This document shows, in pieces, positions 16,569 to 47,262 of a stretch of DNA of 64,000 nucleotides. A model generated the notes under the pieces. That model had not been told where the DNA came from. It saw only the letters and a list, made by a program, of their open reading frames with translations, and ran no database searches. Both the position numbers and the translations under genes were made by a program. The stretch is from Actinocatenispora rupis (GTDB lineage: Bacteria; Actinomycetota; Actinomycetes; Mycobacteriales; Micromonosporaceae). How positions within the stretch are numbered: position 1 is the first letter of the stretch; every line of letters begins with the position of its first letter. The stretch covers positions 434,001 to 498,000 of the forward strand of contig NZ_BOMB01000001.1 in NCBI RefSeq assembly GCF_016861975.1, read 5' to 3'.

Positions 16569-17093
16569 ATGAGCGAGCACGCGACAGCCGACCACGCGCA
16601 GCACACCGGGCACGAGGGACACCACGCGGCCGGCACCGGACGTACCGGATGGCGGAGCGTGAGCTGGCGGATGGCCGCACTGGCGACGCTGCACTGCCTC
16701 ACCGGCTGCGCCATCGGCCAGGTGCTCGGCATGGTGCTGGGCTCGGCGTTCGGGCTGCACAACGCGGCGACCGTGGTCCTGTCCATCGCGCTCGCCTTCG
16801 TCTGCGGCTACGCGCTGACCATGCGCGGCGTACTGAAGGCGGGCCTGGGCGTGCGCCGGGCGTTCCAGGTGGCGCTGGCGGCGGACACCGTGTCGATCAT
16901 CGTCATGGAGATCATCGACAACGGCACCGTGGTGGTCATCCCCGGCGCCATGAACGCCGGCCTGACCAGCGCGCTGTTCTGGCTGTCGCTGGCCGGTTCG
17001 CTGGTACTGGCGTTCCTGGTCACCACGCCGGTGAACCGTTGGATGATCTCCCGCGGGCGCGGCCACGCGGTGGTCCACCAGTACCACCACTGA
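16569..17093 (+). CDS. DUF4396 membrane protein with His-rich termini
   Basis: 174 residues. The cytosolic-looking N-terminus is His-rich (histidines at 4, 9, 12, 15, 18, 19), followed by four predicted helices (TLHCLTGCAIGQVLGMVLG; AATVVLSIALAFVCGYALTM; AFQVALAADTVSIIVMEIID; SALFWLSLAGSLVLAFLVTT) with conserved-looking CLTGC and MEIIDNG, and a HAVVHQYHH tail. This matches DUF4396, a family of unknown function. The His-rich ends and the CsoR/CstR-type operator suggest a link to metal or sulfur stress; that is inference. GAGGAAAG precedes the ATG. The last codons lie within a 29-bp tandem duplication. Confidence 0.85.
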   Translation: MSEHATADHAQHTGHEGHHAAGTGRTGWRSVSWRMAALATLHCLTGCAIGQVLGMVLGSAFGLHNAATVVLSIALAFVCGYALTMRGVLKAGLGVRRAFQVALAADTVSIIVMEIIDNGTVVVIPGAMNAGLTSALFWLSLAGSLVLAFLVTTPVNRWMISRGRGHAVVHQYHH

Positions 17094-17138
17094 CAGGTGG
17101 CGTCGACGCGTACCACCACTGACAGGTGGCGTCGACGC
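17081..17138. repeat. 29-bp tandem duplication across the DUF4396 stop codon
   Basis: Bases 17081-17109 are repeated exactly at 17110-17138. Each copy holds the last codons, the TGA and a small CCACC...GGTGG hairpin. The second copy is outside the gene. Confidence 0.95.
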
Positions 17139-17165
17139 GCCGGACCGGGGTTCCCGGTCCGGCGC
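17137..17165. terminator. Bidirectional terminator, DUF4396 / hydrolase
   Basis: Perfect 13-bp stem: GCGCCGGACCGGG (17137-17149), loop GTT, CCCGGTCCGGCGC (17153-17165), between convergent genes. Confidence 0.85.
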
Positions 17166-18700: not shown

Positions 18701-18827
18701 CCGACCAGAATCGCACGACCGTACGAGGGTGTCCAGGGGTCGGTGATCATCGGCACGACGCTGGCGTACGACCGGACGTGACGGGTGGGGAGGCCAGGAG
18801 TACCGGATTGGCTCTCGCTCGGGGGTC

Positions 18828-19496
18828 GTGGCGGTGGCAGCGTCTGGAGGCGTGCTTCCACTCGCCTCCGTACTCGGGGTCGCGGCCGTGTCGCTCGGCA
18901 TGGTCCTCACCCCCGGCCCGAACATGATGTACCTGGTGTCGCGCAGCATCACGCAGGGCCGCCGCGCCGGGGTGGTGTCGCTCGGCGGCGTGGCGCTCGG
19001 CTTCCTCGTGTACATGACCGCGACGAACCTGGGCCTGTCGGTACTGTTCGTCGCCGTACCGGTGCTGTACCTGGCGGTCAAGTTCGCCGGTGCGGGTTAC
19101 CTGGCGTGGCTCGCGTGGCAGGCGCTGCGCCCCGGCGGGCGGTCGGCGTTCCAGCCGGGCGAGCTGACGCCCGACCGGCCGGGCCGGCTGTTCACGATGG
19201 GGCTGGTCACGAACCTGCTCAACCCCAAGATCGCGGTGATGTACCTGTCGCTGATCCCGCAGTTCGTGCGGCCCGCGGCCGGGCACGTGCTCGCGCAGGG
19301 GTTCGCGCTGGGCCTGGTGCAGATGTCGGTCGCGGTGACGGTCAACCTGGCGATCGTGCTCGCCGCCGGCACCATCGCCGCGTTCCTGTCGCGCCGCCCC
19401 ACCTGGCTGCGCATCCAGCGGTACCTGATGGGCACGGTGCTCGGGGTGCTCGCGGTGAAGCTCGCCACCGACCACGCCCGCCCGGGCCCCGCCTGA
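18828..19496 (+). CDS. LysE-family amino-acid/metabolite exporter
   Basis: 222 residues, six predicted helices. The hallmark TPGPNMMYLVSRSITQGRRAG lies after the first helix, and FTMGLVTNLLNPKIAVMYLSLIPQF is the second LysE/RhtB signature. It exports amino acids or related small molecules through the inner membrane; the substrate is unknown. The GTG at 18828 is taken; GTGs at 18834 and 18852 are alternatives and none has a clearly better ribosome site. It ends four bases from the convergent isochorismatase stop. Confidence 0.9.
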   Translation: MAVAASGGVLPLASVLGVAAVSLGMVLTPGPNMMYLVSRSITQGRRAGVVSLGGVALGFLVYMTATNLGLSVLFVAVPVLYLAVKFAGAGYLAWLAWQALRPGGRSAFQPGELTPDRPGRLFTMGLVTNLLNPKIAVMYLSLIPQFVRPAAGHVLAQGFALGLVQMSVAVTVNLAIVLAAGTIAAFLSRRPTWLRIQRYLMGTVLGVLAVKLATDHARPGPA

Positions 19497-19500
19497 ACCG

Positions 19501-20079
19501 TCAGCCGGTACGCCAGGCGGCGAGCAGCTCGGCGGTCGTCGGGGTCGGGTGCACCAGCCCGAGGTACTCCCGGACCGCGCGGTTGGACCCGTCGTCGCAG
19601 CGATCGATCCCGGACACCAGTTCCTGCGGTACGGCGTAGTCGTAGCCGTGCTCGTCGGCGCCGAGCACCGCGTACAGCACGCAGCACTGGAGTTCGACGC
19701 CGGCGATGACGAGGCCGTCCACGTCCCAGTCGGCGAGTACGGCGTGGAACTCGGGGCTCTGCCACACGTCGTACCGGTGCTTGCGGACGACGCGGGCGCC
19801 GGGCAGCGGCGGCAGGACCAGCTCGGCGCCGCGGGTTCCCTTGCGGCACAAGCTGTCCGGGCCTTCCCGGAGCCGCTGCCGCGGGGTCAGCTCGGCCGGG
19901 TCGTACACCTGCTGGGAGTGGATGGTGCGGGCGCCGAGCCGCCCGGCCGCCGCGGCGAAGTCGTACGCCCGGTGGGCCGCGGCGGTGTTGCCCGCGTTGC
20001 CGTCGCAGAAGTCGTGCTGGAAGTCCACCAGCAACACCGCGACCCGCTCGGGCGGCAGTCCCAGCACACCGTCGTTCAT
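19501..20079 (-). CDS. Isochorismatase-family cysteine hydrolase
   Basis: 192 residues. The Asp-Lys-Cys triad is visible: VLLVDFQHDFCDGN (Asp19), VVRKHRYDVWQSP (Lys) and IAGVELQCCVLYAVLG (Cys). The cis-peptide segment GVELQC is also present. The family includes nicotinamidases, N-carbamoylsarcosine amidases and isochorismatases; the exact reaction cannot be assigned, but the H/D spacing resembles nicotinamidase-like members. Its ATG overlaps the MFS stop (TGATG), so it is the last gene of the XRE-DUF397-MFS operon. It may process a compound handled by that transporter; this is inference. Confidence 0.88.
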   Translation of the reverse strand: MNDGVLGLPPERVAVLLVDFQHDFCDGNAGNTAAAHRAYDFAAAAGRLGARTIHSQQVYDPAELTPRQRLREGPDSLCRKGTRGAELVLPPLPGARVVRKHRYDVWQSPEFHAVLADWDVDGLVIAGVELQCCVLYAVLGADEHGYDYAVPQELVSGIDRCDDGSNRAVREYLGLVHPTPTTAELLAAWRTG

Positions 20080-21482
20080 CGTCCCGCTCCGATCGTCGTA
20101 CGGGTGTCGGTGGTGGCGCGGCGGGCGGGGGAGAGCAGCAGCAGCGCGACGGGTACGGCGGCGAGCGCGACCGCGGCCGTGAGCGCCAGCGCGTGCACGA
20201 AGTCGGCGGTGCCGGGCCGCTCCCCGTGCAGCAGCACGACCAGCGCCAACCCGAGCGACCCGCCCGTGTACTGCGCGGTCGTGACCAGCGCGCTGCCGGT
20301 GCCGGCGCGGTCCGGCGGGAGGTCGCGGGTGCCGGTCACGAACAGCGCCGTGAACGCCGTACCCTGCCCCACGCCGCTCAGCAGCAGGCCGGGCAGCAGC
20401 CCCGCCACGTACCCGGCGTGCGCGTGGACGGCGACGGCCAGCACCACCAACCCCACCCCGCCCACCGCGTACGCGACGGCGAGGAGGCGGCGTAGCGGCC
20501 AGCGCCCCGCGTACCGGCCGGCGAGGGTGTTGCCGACCACGATCGCGCCCGCCAGTGGCAGGAACGCGCATCCCGCGGCCAGCGGCCGGTAGCCGCGCAC
20601 GTCCTGCAGATACAGCGTGACCAGGTAGAACTCGACCCCGAAGCTCGCCATGTACAGCGCGGCCACCACGCACGCGGTGCGCAGCGTACGGACCGCGAGC
20701 AGGCCGCGCGGCACCAGCGGCCGGTCGCCCCGCTGGTGCACGCCGAACACCGCGCCGGCCAGCGCCGCCACCGCGAACCCCGCGCCGACCAGCAGCGGGC
20801 GCGGATGCGCGCGGGCCAGTTCGGTGCACGCCGCGACCACCGCCACCACCGCGGCCGACGCCGCGAGCGTGCCCACCACCGCCACCCGGACCCGACGCAC
20901 CGGCCGTACCCGGCGCAGGGCCGGACCCGCCGCCACCAGGCACACCGCCACGACCGGCAGGTTCACCCAGAACACCCAGCGCCACGAGGCCAGCGCGACC
21001 AACGCACCACCGGCCAGTACGCCGAGGGCCAGGCCGACCGCGCCCGTCGTGCCCCACACGCTCACGGCACGGTTACGCTGCGGCCCCGCCGGATACGAGG
21101 CACCGAGTACGCCGAGGGTCGCCGGCACCAGCAGCGCCGCCGCCACCCCCTGCCCGACCCGCGCCGCGATCACCGGCGCCGCCGACCCCGCGAACCCCGC
21201 ACCCAACGAACTCACCGCGAACAGCGCCTGCGCCACCACGAACATCCGGCCCGCGCCCACCGCGTCCGCCAGCTGCCCGCCCAGCACCAGGAACCCCGCG
21301 AAGAAGATCGCGTACGCGCTGACGATCCACTGCAACGCCACCGGCGAGAAGCGCAGCGCCGCACCGATGTCCGGCAGCGCCACGTACATGATGGAGAAGT
21401 CCAACGCCACCAACAGCTGCGCGCCGGCCAGCCCGGCCAACAACCGCCACGAACCCGCGGGAGACGGGTCGGCGTCGCTCAC
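20076..21482 (-). CDS. MFS transporter, DHA2 (14-helix) drug exporter type
   Basis: 468 residues with about 14 predicted helices. The N-terminal LDFSIMYVALPDIGAALRFSPVALQWIVSAYAIFFAGFLVLGGQLAD and WRWVFWVNLPV segments are typical of EmrB/QacA-like proton antiporters. The GTG at 21482 overlaps the DUF397 stop by four bases. It ends coupled to the isochorismatase gene. A drug or metabolite exporter is likely. Confidence 0.92.
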   Translation of the reverse strand: MSDADPSPAGSWRLLAGLAGAQLLVALDFSIMYVALPDIGAALRFSPVALQWIVSAYAIFFAGFLVLGGQLADAVGAGRMFVVAQALFAVSSLGAGFAGSAAPVIAARVGQGVAAALLVPATLGVLGASYPAGPQRNRAVSVWGTTGAVGLALGVLAGGALVALASWRWVFWVNLPVVAVCLVAAGPALRRVRPVRRVRVAVVGTLAASAAVVAVVAACTELARAHPRPLLVGAGFAVAALAGAVFGVHQRGDRPLVPRGLLAVRTLRTACVVAALYMASFGVEFYLVTLYLQDVRGYRPLAAGCAFLPLAGAIVVGNTLAGRYAGRWPLRRLLAVAYAVGGVGLVVLAVAVHAHAGYVAGLLPGLLLSGVGQGTAFTALFVTGTRDLPPDRAGTGSALVTTAQYTGGSLGLALVVLLHGERPGTADFVHALALTAAVALAAVPVALLLLSPARRATTDTRTTIGAGR

Positions 21483-21766
21483 CCGGCCAGGCGGCCGCCC
21501 CGGACCGCCCCGGTGAACGCGGCCCACGCCACCGGCGACACCGCGACCAGCCCGCCCGCGCGGTCCTTGCTGTCCCGCACCAGCACCCGCTCGTCGCCCG
21601 CCCCCACCTCGACGCAGTTACCCCCACCGTTGGCACTGCGGCTACTAGTCCGCCACAGCACGCCAACCTCAACGCAGTTGCTCCCGCCAGCGCTTCCGCT
21701 TCGGGTGCTGGTCCGCCAGGCGACGGTCGCGAGTTCCGCTCTGGTGTACGTGTCGCCTGTCGTCAT
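21479..21766 (-). CDS. DUF397 protein with an internally duplicated half
   Basis: 95 residues. The DUF397 motif WRTSxRS...G.NCVEVG occurs twice (about residues 17-35 and 38-54), followed by one copy of the RDSKDRAGG...VSPVAWAAF tail. The usual family member is about 60 residues with a single motif, so this is an in-frame duplication. DUF397 genes in actinomycetes habitually follow an XRE regulator with a DUF5753 tail, as here, and act with it in developmental or antibiotic control. GGAG precedes the ATG; the gene lies six bases after the regulator. Confidence 0.92.
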   Translation of the reverse strand: MTTGDTYTRAELATVAWRTSTRSGSAGGSNCVEVGVLWRTSSRSANGGGNCVEVGAGDERVLVRDSKDRAGGLVAVSPVAWAAFTGAVRGGRLAG

Positions 21767-21772
21767 GTCCGG

Positions 21773-22678
21773 TCACTCCAGCTCGTTGATCACCGACCTG
21801 ATGAGGGCGACGGATCGACGGGGATCGAGCGCCGCTTCGAGTAGATGATCGTACGCAGCTTCCAACCGGGCAACCTTCTTGCCTTCAACGAAAATGGCGC
21901 CAACCTGCGTCTCGACATAGCCGACGGTCGGGAAGGGTTGCGCGAGGTCCATGAGCTCGAATGCTCCGGCCATGCCGGTGTGCGCACCCGCCTTGTAGGG
22001 CAGTACACGGATCTCGACGTTGTCGCGTTCCGACAGTTCGACGAGATGTTCGAACTGTGCGCGACGCGTTAACCGGGTGCCGACTGGACGGTGCAGCACC
22101 GATTCATCGATGATGACGTTGAGGTCGATTGGCTCGTCCGCCGTGAGGATCGCTTGGCGTTCCAAGCGGATTTGCAGCCATCGCTTGATCTGCTCCGGCC
22201 GGCTGTCCGGTTCCACGGCGCGCATCGTGGCTTCCGCGTGGGCCTTCGTCTGGAGCAGACCGGGAACCAGCATCTCGTACGAGCGGATGCGCTTGGTGCG
22301 GGACTCGACCCAGAGGCGGTCGATGAGGGTGGCGGCGGCGTCGCCGGTGTACCCGTCCCACCAGCCGTCGCGCCAGATCTCGTGCGCCAGTTGCTTGAGC
22401 ATCTCCCGCCGGTTGGTGTCGTTGATCCGACCCATGTCGAGGTACGCCAGCACGTCGGTGACACGGATGGGGATCTCGCCCTTCTCCATCCGGCTGATCG
22501 TGGACTGGTCGCGTCGGATGTACGCGCCGATGTCGGCCATGCTCAGCCCGGCCTCGCTGCGGAGCTTGCGGAGTTCCTGGGCCAGCCACTGGGTACGCAG
22601 GCCGGGTTCGGTGCGGGGTGGTCTGGTGCGTGCGGTCGCCTTGCGTGGGGCGGTTTTCCGGCTGTCGCGCTGCGGCAT
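21773..22678 (-). CDS. XRE-family regulator with DUF5753 sensor domain
   Basis: 301 residues. The N-terminal HTH is LRKLRSEAGLSMADIGAYIRRDQSTISRMEKGE (about 28-60). The DUF5753 domain contains YEMLVPGLLQTKAHAEATMRAV and a C-terminal VGYVETQVGAIFVEG. This architecture is one half of the paired XRE/DUF397 modules common in Streptomyces and Micromonosporaceae. The ATG at 22678 has GGAG seven bases upstream. It heads the four-gene operon and probably controls it. Its GC content looks lower than its neighbours', which may indicate a different origin. Confidence 0.93.
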   Translation of the reverse strand: MPQRDSRKTAPRKATARTRPPRTEPGLRTQWLAQELRKLRSEAGLSMADIGAYIRRDQSTISRMEKGEIPIRVTDVLAYLDMGRINDTNRREMLKQLAHEIWRDGWWDGYTGDAAATLIDRLWVESRTKRIRSYEMLVPGLLQTKAHAEATMRAVEPDSRPEQIKRWLQIRLERQAILTADEPIDLNVIIDESVLHRPVGTRLTRRAQFEHLVELSERDNVEIRVLPYKAGAHTGMAGAFELMDLAQPFPTVGYVETQVGAIFVEGKKVARLEAAYDHLLEAALDPRRSVALIRSVINELE

Positions 22679-22959
22679 CGAAGACTCCAACTTCTTCTTC
22701 CACTCATAACTTGCGCCAGATCGAAAAGTACGCGATGCTGTCGGCGCGTGCAAGAAGTATCACGCTCGGTCAAATCGAACCGGTCGGCGTGGTGCGCGGA
22801 TACGCGGAAGAAGGGGACCGGGTGGGCGGAAGGTTGGCGCCCGTCGCCCACCCGGTCCGGTGTCGAAACCGTTGGTGCGCCAGGCACGTACGGTCGACCG
22901 GTCCTGTCTACCACGGTCGGTCCGTGCGGCGTCGGCGCCACGAGAGCCGGAGCATGCCG

Positions 22960-23274
22960 ATGACCGAACCGTTGACCGCCGACCCGACCCTGGACGAGGT
23001 GCTGGCCACCGCGCCCGACACCCTCTCCGACCACGTCGGCGCGGTACGCCTGCGCGACGTCCCGCGCGTCCTCGCCCTGTACGACGCGGGCGACCCCGAC
23101 GAGGACGAGCCCGCCGAACTGATCGCCTGGGTCTTCACCCTCCCCGGCCACGGCCCCCTCGTGGTCCGCGCCGCCAACCCGCGCCAACTGGTACACGCGG
23201 CGAGCCTGGAGTCCGTCGCCGTCGGCTGGGCCGCGCACCTCGGCGGCGACCTCACCACCGTCACCCCCGCATGA
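22960..23274 (+). CDS. Hypothetical acidic protein
   Basis: 104 residues, acidic, without signal or membrane segment. PDTLSDHVGAVRLRDVPRVLALYDAGDPDEDEPAELIAWVF and PGHGPLVVRAANPRQLVHAASLESVAVGWAAHLGGDL look like a compact alpha/beta fold. I do not recognise the family. The ATG at 22960 has GGAG seven bases upstream; another ATG at 22954 is too close to it. It stands alone, divergent from the XRE operon. Confidence 0.6.
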   Translation: MTEPLTADPTLDEVLATAPDTLSDHVGAVRLRDVPRVLALYDAGDPDEDEPAELIAWVFTLPGHGPLVVRAANPRQLVHAASLESVAVGWAAHLGGDLTTVTPA

Positions 23275-23385
23275 CCGGCATCCCCTCGCCGTCGCCCGGC
23301 GGCTCGTCAGCGTGCGGCTTCACCGACCGTCCAGGGTGAACCGCACCGCGGGGAGGTCGTGCGACATCCGCCCGGGCGTACAGAG

Positions 23386-24027
23386 TCAGGCATCGGTGGG
23401 CCGGCGGGTCAGGTGGTGCATGGTGCGCAGCTCGGAACGCTCGTGCCAGGCGAGGCGGCGCAACACCTTGACAGTCGTCCACACCTCCCCGTCGGCGCGA
23501 CGTACCAGATCGGCGGGCATCGTCGCGACCACCTCGCGTACGTGCCGGGCGGACGCGCGCAGCTCGGCGAGCAGGTCGGGTTCCGGATCGCGCGCCGGCA
23601 GGCCGAGACTGGGCAGGTAGTAGCGGCTCTCGGTGTCGGCCAGATGCCAGGCCATCTGCCGTACGGTGCGCCAGCGCGCCCACGACGGCAGCACGCGGTG
23701 CGGCTGCGCGGCGTCGAGTACCTCCGGCGGGGTGTGGGTGATCAGGTCGATCGTGTCCGCCCGCGCCGTCGCGAGAACGGCCAGGGTGGCGGCGCGTTCG
23801 GCGAGGGAGGCGGGTCGGTGGTCCCGGCGGAACGCCTGCTCGTCGCCGTGGATCCGTTCCACCGCAACACAATCGTCGCGGCCGAGCTGTGCCGCCAGGT
23901 ACGCCAGCGCGGCCGGCTCGTCGGCGCCCTGACCGCACCGGCCCCACCACCCCGGCTCGAACGACCAGGCCGCCGCCCCGTCGTCCGTCGCCATCGCCAC
24001 ACCCGACTCCACGTACACCGGGGTCAT
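23386..24027 (-). CDS. DinB-like / maleylpyruvate isomerase-fold protein
   Basis: 213 residues, mainly helical. ARWRTVRQMAWHLADTESRYYLPSLG and LRRLAWHERSELRTMHHLTR place metal-ligand histidines as in the DinB/YfiT four-helix bundle, whose members are metal-dependent thiol S-transferases or hydrolases. The N-terminal part (PGWWGRCGQGADEPAALAYLAAQLG) is not typical DinB. The ATG overlaps the stop of the next gene upstream (TGATG), making a two-gene operon of related proteins. Confidence 0.75.
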   Translation of the reverse strand: MTPVYVESGVAMATDDGAAAWSFEPGWWGRCGQGADEPAALAYLAAQLGRDDCVAVERIHGDEQAFRRDHRPASLAERAATLAVLATARADTIDLITHTPPEVLDAAQPHRVLPSWARWRTVRQMAWHLADTESRYYLPSLGLPARDPEPDLLAELRASARHVREVVATMPADLVRRADGEVWTTVKVLRRLAWHERSELRTMHHLTRRPTDA

Positions 24028-24530
24028 CGGCCGGTACTGCCGTCCAGCTGCTCGCGCAGGATGTCCGCATGGCCGGCATGCCGCGCGGTCTCCTCGATCA
24101 TGTGCACCAGCACCCACCGCATCGTGCGCACCCGCGGCGGGGTACTGGCGGCGCGCGCCGTCCGCGCGGACAGATCGGGGCAGCCGGCGATGATCGCGTT
24201 CGAGCGCGCGATCGCCGCCCGGTACGCCGCCGTCACACCCTCCAGCGTGTCCCCCGGGGCGAGCCGCATGTCCATGTCCGGAAACGGAACGTCCTCCCCG
24301 GCGTACGCCCAGGCGAACCAGTGCGTCTCCGCGCCCGCCAGATGCCGCAGCAGACCGAGGACACTCGTTCCCGACTCCACCCCCGGCGCCGCCGCACGGG
24401 CTGCGTCCAGCCCGTCCACCTTGGCCAGCACCGCGTCCCGTACGTAGTCGAGGAACGCGACCAGCGTCTCCCGCTCACCCGCCTCCACCACCGGCGGACG
24501 CTGATCACCACGCTGCCGCTCCACGCTCAT
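24024..24530 (-). CDS. DinB-family protein (DUF664-type)
   Basis: 168 residues. The segments ETLVAFLDYVRDAVLAKVDGLDAARAAAPGVESGTSVLGLLRHLAGAETHWFAW and RTMRWVLVHMIEETARHAGHADILREQLDGSTGR match DUF664/DinB_2 proteins, with three candidate metal-binding histidines (RHLAGAE, HMIEE, RHAGHAD). Possibly a bacillithiol/mycothiol-dependent or hydrolytic enzyme; not determined. First gene of the pair, with the gene-free repeat region upstream. Confidence 0.88.
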   Translation of the reverse strand: MSVERQRGDQRPPVVEAGERETLVAFLDYVRDAVLAKVDGLDAARAAAPGVESGTSVLGLLRHLAGAETHWFAWAYAGEDVPFPDMDMRLAPGDTLEGVTAAYRAAIARSNAIIAGCPDLSARTARAASTPPRVRTMRWVLVHMIEETARHAGHADILREQLDGSTGR

Positions 24531-24628
24531 GCCCGCCACCCTAGATCGACGCCCGCCCCGCGCGCGCCGCCGTATCCCGCACCACGAGACCGTGCCACAG
24601 CGCCCCTTTGACCGACCTGTACGACGTG

Positions 24629-24774
24629 CTCGTCGCCGGGTGGGCCGTCGCGCCGTTGCGTTGGTGAACAGCGCGGTCTCGCCGGGTGGGCCATCACGCC
24701 GTTGCGTTGGTGAACAGGGCGCGGTCTCGCCAGGTGGGCCGTCGCGCCGTTGCGTCTGGTGAACAGGGCGCGGT
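24629..24774. repeat. 48/49-bp tandem repeat, three copies
   Basis: Three direct copies (24629-24677, 24678-24725, 24726-24774) share GGTGGGCC.TC.CGCCGTTGCG and GGTGAACAG near identically; the start of a fourth (CTCGCCGG) follows. Unit lengths of 48 and 49 break any reading frame, so it is non-coding. Confidence 0.9.
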
Positions 24775-25243
24775 CTCGCCGGTGCTTCTCGGTGGCGCCG
24801 CGGACGAGAACCATTGCGCCCGGCGTACTCGCCGCACCTGCGCTGGCACCTTGGTCCGGGGCCACGGGCCGACAGTACGGCAGCGCTGAACTCGGCTCTC
24901 TGCACTACGCCAATGCCCCGATCCTGGGGCTGGACGGCACAACCGTTGTCGACGGTCGTCGAGCCGGTGCCGCGCAGAGCGGTCCGGCGTACCGGATCGG
25001 AGGGGTACTGGGCGCGCTCTCCGAACGTGACGGCGGATGGGCGCTGTCCGTACGGCAGGAGCTGCACACCGACATGCGTTGCCACCGCCGACCAGGTACT
25101 GGTGTGACTCTGGCGGCGCGCGGACCGAGGGAGGGGGAGGCGCGGGGCCCGTCCGATTCCTGGAGGGCTATCGGGCCGAGCCGCTGACCGTCCACGATGG
25201 ACGCTTGTACCGGGGCGACACGCCGCTGAAGTGAGCACATCCG

Positions 25244-25298
25244 GATTGTTCAATTGTCTCATTGTTCAACTGTCCAATTGTTGAACAGTTGAACAATC
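25244..25298. repeat. AT-rich composite palindrome
   Basis: ATTGTTCAACTGT (25261-25273) pairs perfectly with ACAGTTGAACAAT (25285-25297) across an 11-base loop. A second upstream GATTGTTCAA (25244-25253) can pair with the same right arm TTGAACAATC, so two hairpins compete. CAATTG occurs twice. About 35% GC in a chromosome above 70%. Confidence 0.9.
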
Positions 25299-25382
25299 TG
25301 GGGTCGCGGCGCGCCCGAAGTACCGCGACACGCCCACCCGTGCCCGCGCAACCCCCGCCCGCGAGCCCCGGCCCGGCAACCC

Positions 25383-25870
25383 CGCCCGCGAGCCTCGAAC
25401 CGGCGCAACCGGCGCCCGCATCGCCGCCCGGAAAACGTTGCCCCGCAACGCATCCGCGCTGTGGGCGTTGCCCCGAGTCCGTCCGCGAGCCTCGGCCCGC
25501 GCAACCGGCGCCGCCATCTCCGCCGCAAACCTTGCCCGCAACGCACCCCCGCTGTCGGCATTGCCACCGATCCCACCCGCGACCCCGTCCTGCAGAACAG
25601 GCGCCCGCATGCCCGACCGTGAATCCTTGCCCCGCAACGCATCCCCGCCATCCGCGTTGCCCCCGGTCCCACCCGCGAGCCTCGTCCTGTGCACCCCGGC
25701 GCCCGCATTCTCGACCGTGAACCCTTGCCCTGCAACGCATCCCCCGTCTGCGTTGCCCCAGAGTTCGCCCGCGAACCGCGACCTGCGCAAGCCGGCGCCC
25801 GCATCTCGGCCCGCGAATCCTTGCCCCGCAAGGCATCCCGGTCGTCAGCGGTTGCCACCAGTCCGCCTGC
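25383..25870. repeat. About 96-bp tandem array, five diverged copies with conserved inverted repeats
   Basis: The anchor GCAACGC (GCAAGGC in the last unit) starts at 25445, 25538, 25634, 25732 and 25828, giving periods of 93, 96, 98 and 96. Each unit holds TTGC-CC(C)-GCAA, and in units 1, 3 and 4 also a perfect GCAACGC...GCGTTGC dyad with an 11-13-base loop; unit 2 has one mismatch. Unit 1 has CGTTGC/GCAACG and unit 5 has CCTTGC/GCAAGG, so the arms change together. The rest of the unit is less conserved. Periods are not all multiples of three. Confidence 0.85.
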
Positions 25871-25889
25871 GGGCAAGCCACAAGCGCCG

Positions 25890-26783
25890 TCAGGCAACGG
25901 CTGCCAGCGCATCGGCCAGGGGTGTCGGCTCGATCCCGAACGTACGCGTGGTCGACGACGCGTCCATGGTGAACGGCCGGGCCCACTGGTAGTACGTGGT
26001 ACGCAGTTCGCGCAGGAAGCTGTTGCCGAGCCCGCCGGCCCACAGCACCGGGTACGGCATGGCGGTGAGTCGGGGCGCGGGCAGTCCGGAGACGTCGGCG
26101 TAGCGGCGCGCGATCTGCCGTACGGTGAGCGGGTCGTGGCTCGGTACCAACCAGGCGCGGCCCCACGCGGTGTCGGTGGTGGCGGCGGTGACGAGGGTGC
26201 GGGCGACGTCGGTGATGGACGTGAAGGTGTGCGGCACGTCGAGCGGCGTCGGCGTGTACGCCCGCTTCCCGGCGCGCAGCGGTCCGCCGATGGCGAAGCT
26301 GAACACGGAGTTGTCCTCGATGTAGTCGCTGGCGCGTACTTCGGTGGCGCGGATGCGGCCGTCGCGGTGTGCGGCGAGCGCGGCGCGCCACATGTCGGCG
26401 CGCATCCGCAGTTTGGGGTGGGTGGCGGCGAGCGGGGTGTCGTCGGTGATCGGCCCGTCGACGGGCCCGTACCCGTAGAGGCAGCTCGCGGTGGCGTGGA
26501 CGGCGCCGGTGCGTTCGGCGGCGGTGAGGAGGCTGGCGGCGAGCGGCGGCCAGTCGGTGAGCCACCGGTGGTACTGGGGGTTGGCGCAGTTGTACAGGGC
26601 GGCGGCGCCTTCGGTCAGGGTGGTGAGCCGGTCGGCGTCGGTGGCGTCGGCGGCGATCCGTTCGGTGCCGTCGGGGCCGCGGCCGCTGCGGGTCACGACG
26701 CGGACCCGCTCGCCGCGGTCGAGGAGTACGCGGGCGGTGGCGGTGCCGACCGGGCCACCGCCGACGATCACGTGCAGGCTCAT
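25890..26783 (-). CDS. NAD-dependent epimerase/dehydratase-like reductase
   Basis: 297 residues. An N-terminal Rossmann fold opens with HVIVGGGPVGTATARVLLDRGERVRVVTRSG (glycine-rich loop GGGPVG). The usual short-chain YxxxK catalytic pair is not evident, so this is an atypical extended SDR, probably a binding or reductase protein of the NmrA-like kind. GGGAGA precedes the ATG at 26783. It is divergent from a TetR gene; the two share an intergenic region with two operator copies, so TetR very probably represses it and the unknown substrate or product may be the ligand. Confidence 0.82.
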   Translation of the reverse strand: MSLHVIVGGGPVGTATARVLLDRGERVRVVTRSGRGPDGTERIAADATDADRLTTLTEGAAALYNCANPQYHRWLTDWPPLAASLLTAAERTGAVHATASCLYGYGPVDGPITDDTPLAATHPKLRMRADMWRAALAAHRDGRIRATEVRASDYIEDNSVFSFAIGGPLRAGKRAYTPTPLDVPHTFTSITDVARTLVTAATTDTAWGRAWLVPSHDPLTVRQIARRYADVSGLPAPRLTAMPYPVLWAGGLGNSFLRELRTTYYQWARPFTMDASSTTRTFGIEPTPLADALAAVA

Positions 26784-26804
26784 GATGTGTCTCCCTCTCG
26801 CAAA

Positions 26805-26821
26805 CGAGATCAGTGCTCTCG
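26805..26821. promoter_or_regulatory. TetR operator copy 1 (reductase side)
   Basis: CGAGATCAGTGCTCTCG, an imperfect dyad located 22 bases upstream of the reductase ATG. It matches the copy at 26858 at 15 of 17 positions. Confidence 0.75.
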
Positions 26822-26857
26822 ATTGAGGCCACTGTCCACCACGCGCCTGCTCGCTGT

Positions 26858-26874
26858 CAAGAGCAGTGCTCTCG
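26858..26874. promoter_or_regulatory. TetR operator copy 2 (regulator side)
   Basis: CAAGAGCAGTGCTCTCG with core AGAGC-AGT-GCTCT, 22 bases upstream of the TetR ATG at 26897. Placement mirrors copy 1, as expected for dual repression and autoregulation. Confidence 0.78.
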
Positions 26875-26896
26875 TTTGTGTGCGATACTCGCTGGC

Positions 26897-27592
26897 ATGG
26901 TGGAACACACGGGAATCCGGGCCCGCGTACGGGCCGAGCTGACCGGGGAGATCAAGGCCGCGGCGCGCCGCCAGCTCGCCACCGAGGGCGCGAACCTCTC
27001 ACTGCGTGCCATCGCCCGCGAGCTGGGCATGGCCTCCTCCGCGCTGTACCGCTACTTCGCCAACCGGGACGACCTGCTCACCGCGCTGATCATCGACGCG
27101 TACGACGGGCTCGGGGAGGCCGCCGAGACCGCCGACGCCCGGTACCGGCGGCGCGGTGACCACGTCGGGCGGTGGCTGGCGGTGGCGCGGGCGCTGCGTG
27201 GCTGGGCGCTCGCCGCGCCGAGCGAGTACGCGCTGATTCTGGGGAGCCCGGTGCCCGGGTACCGCGCGCCGACCGACACGACCGGGCCGGCGAGCCGGGC
27301 GCCGCTCGTCCTGGCCGGGATCGTCGCCGACGCCGCGGCGGCCGGCGCGCTCGACGAGGTCCCCGCGCCGCCGCTGCCGGCGAAGCTGCGCGCCGAGCTG
27401 ACCGCCGTCGCCGGGCAGGTGAACGTCCCGCTCGACGCACCGGTACTGGCCCGGATGATGCTCGCCTGGACCGAGCTGTACGGGGCGATCAGCTTCGAAC
27501 TGTTCGGCCAGCTCGACAACCTCGTGGGTCGGCGCGACGAGTGGTTCGACTACCAGGCGCGCAGCATGGCCGCCCTGATCGGCCTGCGCTGA
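26897..27592 (+). CDS. TetR-family regulator with WHG-type C-terminal domain
   Basis: 231 residues. The HTH is LSLRAIARELGMASSALYRYFANRDDLLTALI (about 35-66). The C-terminal half contains RALRGWALAAPSEYALILGSPVPGYRAP, typical of TetR proteins with a WHG domain. It is divergent from the reductase at 25890 and expected to bind the two 17-bp dyads between them. ATG start; no strong ribosome site is visible, and the message may be leaderless or nearly so. Confidence 0.92.
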   Translation: MVEHTGIRARVRAELTGEIKAAARRQLATEGANLSLRAIARELGMASSALYRYFANRDDLLTALIIDAYDGLGEAAETADARYRRRGDHVGRWLAVARALRGWALAAPSEYALILGSPVPGYRAPTDTTGPASRAPLVLAGIVADAAAAGALDEVPAPPLPAKLRAELTAVAGQVNVPLDAPVLARMMLAWTELYGAISFELFGQLDNLVGRRDEWFDYQARSMAALIGLR

Positions 27593-35125: not shown

Positions 35126-36283
35126 ATGCAGCCCTCCGGCCCGAATCCCGACGGTCCCCCCGCAGATCCCCCGTCCGTCCCGCCCACCGCCGCCGCGGAG
35201 CCCGCCGGCACGGAGCCCGCCAGCGCCACCGGCCCAGCCGGATCACCGCCGCCCGCCGGTACGCCCGCGCCACCTCCCGCTGCGCCGTACGCGCAATCCC
35301 CGGGCACCCCGCAGCCCGGTTCCGGCCTGCCGCCCGTCGGCGGATTGCCGCAAGGAACCGGATCGCCGCAGGGAACTGGAGTCCCGCAGGGCCCCGGAGC
35401 GGCGCAGGCTCCCGGAACGCCGCAGGGAACCGGAGCGCCACAGGGCCCCGGAATCCCGCAGGCCGCTGGAACGCCGCAGGGAACCGGTATGCCGCAGGGA
35501 ATGGGGATCCCGCAGGGAACGGGGATGCCGCAGGGTTGCGGGATGCCGTACGGCGCCGCGATGCCGCCGGGTGCGCCGCCGCCGGGCGCGCCGGCCGCCG
35601 CCGGTACGTCCGCGCCGCCGGTGTGGCTGCTGATCGGGCCGGCGCTGGGCGCCGTGCTGGGGTTGGTCCTGGCGACGAGCCTGGTCGGCCCGGGTGGTCT
35701 GGCGGTGCAGCGCGACCTGGGTGTCTCGGCGACCGCGCTGGGTGTCGTGATCGCCGCGTACCTGCTGCCGATGGTGCTGGTCGGCGCGCTCGGGGTCGTC
35801 GTCGGCCGGCGGTTCCCGACCGCAGTCGCCGCCCCCGGTCTGGTACTCCTGCTCGTGGGCCTGCTGCTGTCGGCGCTCACCCCGTCGGCGCCGGTGATCG
35901 TCGTCGGCCGGGTGCTGTGCGGGATCGGCGCGGGCGCGGCCGCCGGTACGGTGGTGGGCCTGGCCCTCGGGTACCGGCGGCGTGGTCTGGCGCTCGGGTT
36001 GACGGCGGGGGTCGGGCTGGTGGCGCTGGTGCTCGGCCCGGTGGACGGCTTCGTGTGGTCGACGTTCCTGGCGTGGCGCTGGATCTTCTTCGCCGCGGTG
36101 CCGGTCGCGCTGGTCGCGATCGCGGTCACCGCCGTCGCAGGCATCGTCCGGCTGACCCGCCGCCCGGCCGTGACACACCCGTACCCGCCCGTAACAGGCA
36201 CCGGGCAGCCGGCGTTCCCGCCCGCGGCACAGCAGCCGGGTCCGGCCGCGGCGCAGCAGCCGTACCCGCCGGCCGCGGGCTGA
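35126..36283 (+). CDS. Half-size MFS-like membrane protein with Pro/Gly-rich repeat N-terminus
   Basis: 385 residues. The first 165 or so are disordered, rich in Pro, Gly, Ala and Gln, with about ten copies of a PQGTG/PQGPG pentad-to-heptad spaced by single hydrophobic residues (near 75-145). Six predicted helices follow: WLLIGPALGAVLGLVLATSL, LGVVIAAYLLPMVLVGALGVVVG, APGLVLLLVGLLLSAL, IVVGRVLCGIGAGAAAGTVVG, LALGLTAGVGLVALVLG and WIFFAAVPVALVAIAVT. They correspond to the N-terminal half of a DHA2 MFS transporter (LAVQRDLGVSATALGVVIAAYLLP, WRWIFFAAVP). The C-terminal half is absent; a Pro/Gln tail ends the protein. A complete transporter would need to dimerise. Confident ATG at 35126 but weak ribosome site. 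Confidence 0.8.
   Translation: MQPSGPNPDGPPADPPSVPPTAAAEPAGTEPASATGPAGSPPPAGTPAPPPAAPYAQSPGTPQPGSGLPPVGGLPQGTGSPQGTGVPQGPGAAQAPGTPQGTGAPQGPGIPQAAGTPQGTGMPQGMGIPQGTGMPQGCGMPYGAAMPPGAPPPGAPAAAGTSAPPVWLLIGPALGAVLGLVLATSLVGPGGLAVQRDLGVSATALGVVIAAYLLPMVLVGALGVVVGRRFPTAVAAPGLVLLLVGLLLSALTPSAPVIVVGRVLCGIGAGAAAGTVVGLALGYRRRGLALGLTAGVGLVALVLGPVDGFVWSTFLAWRWIFFAAVPVALVAIAVTAVAGIVRLTRRPAVTHPYPPVTGTGQPAFPPAAQQPGPAAAQQPYPPAAG

Positions 36284-43447: not shown

Positions 43448-47262
<3,815 letters not shown>

Follow-up and report, generated by a model that had tools for sequence, protein, structure and literature searches.

The question raised by this locus is what a diverged five-unit repeat beside an epimerase gene of Actinocatenispora rupis represents: a coding repeat, an array of protein-binding sites, the source of a small RNA, or a minisatellite. 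The repeat lies in a 64,000-nucleotide stretch of contig C1 (the whole stretch analysed, hereafter the window, whose numbering is used unless a contig is named), and the host genome assembly is a 7.83 Mb draft that is 96.8% complete. Tandem Repeats Finder (TRF) places the array at 25382-25871 with a period of 96, 5.1 copies, 75% matches and a score of 474, compared with a maximum of 83 in 500 dinucleotide shuffles of 25302-25889 (periods of at least 20), which bears out the claim of an earlier note that five diverged units recur at a period near 96. The unit anchors given in that note (25445, 25538, 25634, 25732, and 25828; spacings of 93, 96, 98, and 96) are correct, and the perfect GCAACGC...GCGTTGC dyad that it described in units 1, 3, and 4 was confirmed, with one mismatch in unit 2 and loss of the dyad in unit 5. 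The features discussed below are collected in Table 1.

Table 1. Features of the array, its surroundings and related elements in the window.
Feature	Position	Strand	Basis
AT-rich palindrome of 8-base modules, separate dispersed element, outside the array	25241..25301		repeat search
Second tandem array, 46-bp unit, 3.1 copies, same non-coding interval (24540-25889)	24633..24782		TRF
96-bp tandem array, 5.1 diverged copies, minisatellite-like	25382..25871		TRF score 474 vs shuffles <=83
Unit 1 hairpin core, 6-bp stem CGTTGC/GCAACG	25436..25450	-	-14.5 kcal/mol over 25428-25456, - strand; family covariance model 23.2 bits, E 0.0017
Unit 2 core, loop 1 base shorter, poor family match	25530..25543	-	family covariance model 8.8 bits, E 7
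Unit 3 core, C/C mismatch breaks stem	25625..25639	-	family covariance model 18.7 bits, E 0.022
Unit 4 core, C/C mismatch breaks stem	25723..25737	-	family covariance model 25.1 bits, E 5.5e-4, top hit on + strand
Unit 5 hairpin core with 6-bp CCTTGC/GCAAGG stem	25819..25833	-	-13.0 kcal/mol over 25811-25839, - strand; family covariance model 19.2 bits, E 0.017, top hit on + strand
NAD-dependent epimerase/dehydratase family gene (PF01370), 3' end toward array	25890..26783	-	Pfam + gene prediction
Dispersed hairpin family site, convergent genes, about 10 nt past stop codon	40281..40307		motif search + covariance model
Dispersed hairpin family site, about 10 nt before predicted gene start, 288 nt past left-hand gene	43549..43575		motif search + covariance model
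Dispersed hairpin family site, convergent genes, about 4 nt past stop codon	57714..57740		motif search + covariance model

The array does not appear to encode protein. Codon-position GC is flat across it, and the interval 24540-25889 holds no predicted gene according to codon-model gene calls, which come from a purpose-written script and not from the genome annotation; the earlier view of the array as non-protein is thereby upheld. A coding repeat was rejected on the flat codon-position GC and on the lack of a Pfam match in three of the several open reading frames that cross the array, a further long minus-strand frame lying outside that scan. A scan of 10 neighbouring proteins and frames recognized only the epimerase, TetR, mycothiol-S-transferase/DinB_2, and HTH/DUF5753, and the replication or partition gene that might accompany the iterons or partition sites proposed for the array is absent from this set. 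A scan of 24500-26000 for sigma-70-like promoters, of limited value for this host, returned none, and a simple scan of the same segment found no terminator-like site with a T-run.

The argument for selection on the units had rested on compensated changes between the arms of the inverted repeat. The strings cited, CGTTGC/GCAACG in unit 1 and CCTTGC/GCAAGG in unit 5, do exist, yet the intervening units 2, 3, and 4 read CCTTGC/GCAACG and place C opposite C, so that unit 1 shows G-C at the cited pair, unit 5 shows C-G, and units 2-4 are unpaired there. The 6-bp stem is accordingly kept in units 1 and 5 only, while units 2-4 fold at -6.3 to -7.6 kcal/mol on the minus strand. Covariation scoring of the aligned units, which the earlier note had put forward as a check, gave a score of 0.033 that was reached or passed by 412 of 500 shuffles, a comparison of low power with five sequences and one in which the loop of unit 2, being one base shorter, causes its other stem cells to misalign. 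Covariation among the five units was rejected on this result, and the claim of compensated changes in the array is not supported. Folding of the whole array showed no significant excess over shuffled sequence on the plus strand (z -0.54; 31 of 100 at least as good) or the minus strand (z -1.53; 8 of 100), and RNA structure of the array as a whole was rejected as well. A search of Rfam over the window gave no match to the array at the gathering threshold, the sole match being a distant ZMP/ZTP riboswitch at 614-695 on the minus strand (47.2 bits). The suggestion of a repeat-derived small RNA thus finds no support in folding or in Rfam. A general caution follows for sequences of this kind, in that the dyads of GC-rich minisatellites may seem compensated when they are not.

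Comparison with related genomes places the array in a changeable setting. The epimerase and TetR genes (25962-27592) are conserved in three congeners, as is the stretch up to about 18.74 kb, and the interval between those blocks, 18740-25960, is a region variable among congeners that spans 7.2 kb here and 2.6-2.9 kb in the other three. Sequence matching and TRF found nothing that matches the array in the syntenic interval of any of the three, and that of congener G001 holds other open frames. BLAST searches with the array hit 23 of 61 genomes, its own among them, with matches that were short and GC-rich; the two own-genome matches were inspected, and TRF was run over the retrieved loci. The plasmids and phages searched gave no match. 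The earlier note had stated that its reading would be refuted if no other genome kept the dyads while the flanks diverged, or if covariation fell short of significance; the array is kept in no genome searched, and the covariation is not significant.

The genus is rich in intergenic tandem arrays, with 22 in contig C1 and 13 in contig C10 (35 in 1.04 Mb of this genome, 122 kb of it intergenic) and 32 in 0.4 Mb of congener G002 (71 kb intergenic). By TRF score the 96-bp array ranks at the top in C1 but is outscored by one array in C10 (478) and another in G002 (791). Like other intergenic minisatellites, it is made of head-to-tail diverged copies with units of tens of bases, and it is GC-rich, non-coding and unconserved between species; unlike them, its unit is centred on a palindrome that is dispersed through the genome. 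The array itself looks real but ordinary, and alone it matters little.

The core of the unit is a worn copy of this palindrome, GGATCCGTTGC-NNN-GCAACGGATCC, about 25 bp in length. The TTGC-CCC-GCAA element, treated in the earlier note as non-random, is indeed so, because it forms part of this dispersed family. A 17-base core search of the genome yielded 66 sites at up to 2 mismatches, several of them intergenic and just past stop codons, and these matches led to the motif ATCCGTTGC-NNN-GCAACGGAT; the family search was in this sense guided by the array, since the motif derives from array matches. At up to 3 mismatches the palindrome occurs at 279 sites in this genome, compared with 52, 33, and 56 in the three congeners, and at 0-53 sites in 146 other genomes at the level of the Micromonosporaceae, 132 of which have 11 or fewer. 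Intergenic sites at up to 4 mismatches number 19 in C1 (6 within two arrays), compared with none for each of 12 shuffled-arm palindromes, and 15 in C10 (2 within one array), compared with 0-1 for 12 such controls; thus 8 of the 34 sites sit in three arrays. Congener G002 has 2 such sites, no excess over its controls (0-2). Over all 1.58 Mb examined, with two arrays dropped and part of the sequence picked for hits, there are 53 intergenic sites, against 0-3 for 25 control palindromes. Shuffled-arm palindromes are a better control than the reversed pattern, whose TAG and CTA strings make it a weak one.

Sites also fall inside predicted genes, accounting, at up to 4 mismatches, for 16 of 35 in C1, where the controls have 0-5, and for 43 of 58 in C10, where they have 0-3, and per base the palindrome is strongly enriched in intergenic DNA. 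These counts depend on how the sequence was sampled. Only C1, which holds the window, was chosen irrespective of the family; C10 was chosen after many sites were known there, and the remaining 0.54 Mb of the 1.58 Mb was picked for matches to the palindrome family or to the AT-rich family described below. The density at up to 4 mismatches, genes included, is 135 per Mb in C10 and 57 per Mb in C1 (2.4-fold), a contrast inflated by the choice of C10 once its sites were known; the motif as a marker of a chromosome region was considered by density only and was dropped. Two further arrays share the core: a diverged and irregularly spaced intergenic array around CCGTTGCGCCGCAACG at G000:C1:269.77-270.52 kb of this genome, whose core is like that of the 96-bp array, and an array of period 99 with a CCGTTGCGCCGCAACG core at C10:11516-11747. 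No paper on the palindrome family was found in the literature covered, which was mostly open-access and in which the motif string itself is not searchable.

A covariance model was built from 54 intergenic sites, its training rows holding no unit of the 96-bp array, and was run over the window with filters off. For this model and for the position counts the 96-bp array was dropped and other sites less than 300 bp apart were thinned, which leaves two other arrays represented in the model by a single site apiece. Four of the five array units were recovered, in the order 4, 1, 5, and 3, and unit 2 was missed (E-values, which are rough, in Table 1). The other places in the window at E <=0.05 are three training sites and five non-training ones (46251, 23849, 19833, 41154, and 30177).

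The sites prefer the 3' ends of genes. With array sites dropped, a gene 3' end is nearest in 9 of 13 intergenic sites in C1 (39% at random, p 0.025), and 5 of the 13 lie between convergent genes, which make up 11% of intergenic bases (p 0.011); the corresponding figures in C10 are 9 of 13 (p 0.021) and 8 of 13 (p 9e-5). In the 54-site set, many stretches of which were picked for hits, the 3' end is nearest in 40 of the 52 sites with both neighbours known, and 33 of the 52 lie within 33 nt of a stop codon, often 3-33 nt past it, with one of the 33 overlapping the gene end. Across all examined sequence there are 4.6 family sites per 100 kb in divergent (promoter) intergenic regions vs 102.9 in convergent ones. 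The commonest base in every flanking column of the 54 sites is G or C, leaving no U-tract, and little sequence conservation extends past about 30 bp around the sites.

Whether the paired arms are maintained as pairs was approached in two ways that are biased in opposite directions, the mismatch-limited 54-site set penalizing double changes and the leave-one-pair-out set admitting generic hairpins. In the pooled and leave-one-pair-out sets the 96-bp array and the array at C1:269.7-270.6 kb were dropped wholly. An early reading of the family as a DNA dimer site arose because coding and intergenic sites, when pooled, showed no covariation; separating the two altered this result for the intergenic sites, and the 54-site set again showed none, with 313 of 500 shuffles scoring as high as the whole-structure alignment. 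In the leave-one-pair-out test, which allowed 4 mismatches for intergenic and 3 for coding sites, intergenic sites had a pairing excess at pairs 2, 3, 4, 5, and 9 (p 0.003, 0.001, 0/2000, 0.025, and 0.002) and none at pairs 1, 6, 7, and 8, and coding sites had none at any of the nine pairs (lowest p 0.052). In this set the average over 25 control palindromes was 6-11 sites per pair (maxima 14-43), compared with 69-83 for the family. The covariation evidence for the family is therefore mixed, with a hint of real compensation in the dispersed intergenic sites only and not in the array.

At the gene ends that could be aligned, the relatives fold into other stems. Among 51 gene ends beside family sites, six alignments at four sites reached the gene end in congener G002 or G003, and all six aligned ends have other stems of -38 to -52 kcal/mol over 70 nt, energies taken without a shuffle control; near 57.7 kb, one of the four aligned ends, another long hairpin stands beside the family hairpin by eye. 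The hairpin comparison at the epimerase locus left out loci L026 and L027, which show the opposite flank of that gene. Most hairpins at gene 3' ends do not belong to the family, a TTG arm being present in 7 of 183 ends with a stem of at least 7 (5 distinct places) and in 2 of 92 in G002.

We consider that the array is probably a GC-rich intergenic minisatellite, derived from a duplicated epimerase 3' flank that bore one terminator-like hairpin of the palindrome family. Tandem duplication of about 96 bp of this flank, carrying a single family member, would have given rise to the array. The family hairpins may work as I-shaped transcription terminators or 3'-end stabilizers that dispense with a U-tract, and unit 5, whose intact hairpin is the closest to the stop codon of the epimerase gene, would end or protect the epimerase transcript. 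The other units would be decaying duplicates, largely or wholly without independent function, unit 1 also keeping its stem. Several observations stand against this account, among them that the core of unit 5 lies 56 nt past the stop codon, beyond most family sites (units 1-4 are farther out still), that stems or loops are broken in units 2-4, that the scan of 24500-26000 gave no terminator-like site with a T-run, and that most gene 3' ends have other hairpins. A terminator role also does not account for the enrichment of the family inside predicted genes.

Published work bears on such a role in both directions. One review states that hairpins without a U-tail up to 50 bp from the stop codon predominate among mycobacterial intrinsic terminators and also that intrinsic terminators are scarce in mycobacteria, where Rho is dominant, and a title cited there holds that the mycobacterial polymerase requires a U-tract (PMC12288462). 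In Streptomyces clavuligerus, there are 353 structured, U-poor 3' ends, which might represent either terminators of this type or the products of Rho (PMC8269248). A further source places predicted terminator hairpins within 80 bases past the stop codon in 98% of correctly found cases, and proposes hairpin clusters as termination units (PMC8355165).

Of the other accounts, a REP-like mobile palindrome would have the family spread by transposition and the array arise as a REP tandemly repeated with its flanks, as in Pseudomonas. Like a REP/BIME system with its RAYT, the family is a short palindrome with hundreds of near-matches, is enriched outside genes and at 3' ends, is commoner in one species and forms tandem clusters, and tandem reiteration of REPs is described for Pseudomonas (PMC3733652). 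Unlike such a system, it has no GTAG tag near any of the 54 family sites (24 of 1673 at random) and no enrichment of CGTC (5 of 54; 212 of 1673 at random), many of its sites are in genes, conservation fades past about 30 bp, and the Y1 transposase (PF01797, Y1_Tnp) has no match in the draft assembly. The standard REP was rejected on the tag, CGTC and transposase results, and the broader REP-like account appears unlikely to us. A neutral minisatellite, in which the hairpin core is incidental and the unit functionless, draws on the abundance of intergenic arrays here and in G002, the 75% matches between units, the broken stems and the absence of the array from congeners. It is opposed by the recovery of four of five units with a model untrained on them and by the rarity of intergenic matches to shuffled-arm palindromes (0-3), and is likewise doubtful.

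An array of protein-binding sites (for nucleoid, partition or replication proteins), in which the dyad would form a pair of half-sites, would suit the presence of family sites in genes. It would also suit the variation of the dispersed motif, in which fixed positions of both arms exchange G with C or A with T, without pairing when coding and intergenic sites are pooled. The neighbouring proteins and frames scanned hold no replication or partition gene, and sites are depleted in divergent intergenic regions; we regard this account as distinctly improbable. Least credible, and in our judgement very improbable indeed, is a structured small RNA made from the repeat, to which the hairpins of units 1 and 5 could belong. 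Against it stand the unexceptional folding on either strand, the absence of covariation among the units, the lack of an Rfam match at the gathering threshold or of any homologous array found, and the promoter scan of 24500-26000, weak as that scan is here.

Terminators generally share structure rather than sequence. Like the I-shaped, U-less terminators of GC-rich bacteria, the family is a GC-rich hairpin without a U-tract, often near stop codons and between convergent genes; unlike them, many of its sites share one sequence and the array repeats the hairpin five times, and termination is here a prediction. It is conceivable, if rather speculative and on balance improbable, that the species is replacing unrelated terminators at gene 3' ends by one stereotyped hairpin that spreads independently of a RAYT and is locally amplified into tandem arrays. 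Should the family be functional, one hairpin sequence would occupy many gene ends in a single species while its relatives keep other hairpins, and terminator turnover could be studied by comparing a few genomes.

Other repeats were seen in passing. An exact 29-bp tandem duplicate lies at 17081-17139, and at 35341-35571 there is a tandem array with 18/36/54-bp units containing CCGCAGGGAACCGG, half-motifs similar to which were seen by eye in other arrays of the genome. The AT-rich palindrome lies 80 bases from the 96-bp array, is unrelated to the hairpin family and is more unusual than the array. It has at least 46 copies in the examined sequence of this genome (the genome search scored 40 of 80 candidates, and the true number may be higher), including G000:C21:212260-212334 and G000:C1:212891-212941, and was found in none of the 149 other family genomes, the 393 other class genomes (sets that partly overlap) and the phages and plasmids searched. 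The copies read as strings of 8-base modules (TTGTTCAA, CTGTTCAA, TTGTCTCA and their reverses), are mostly flanked by GA...TC, and have a length of 8n+3 in 42 of 46 cases when delimited with a set of 16 octamers; 43 of the 46 lie outside predicted genes. In folding, 39 copies averaged -25.4 kcal/mol compared with -19.8 kcal/mol for module-shuffled versions, and 17 of the 39 fell in the best 5%.
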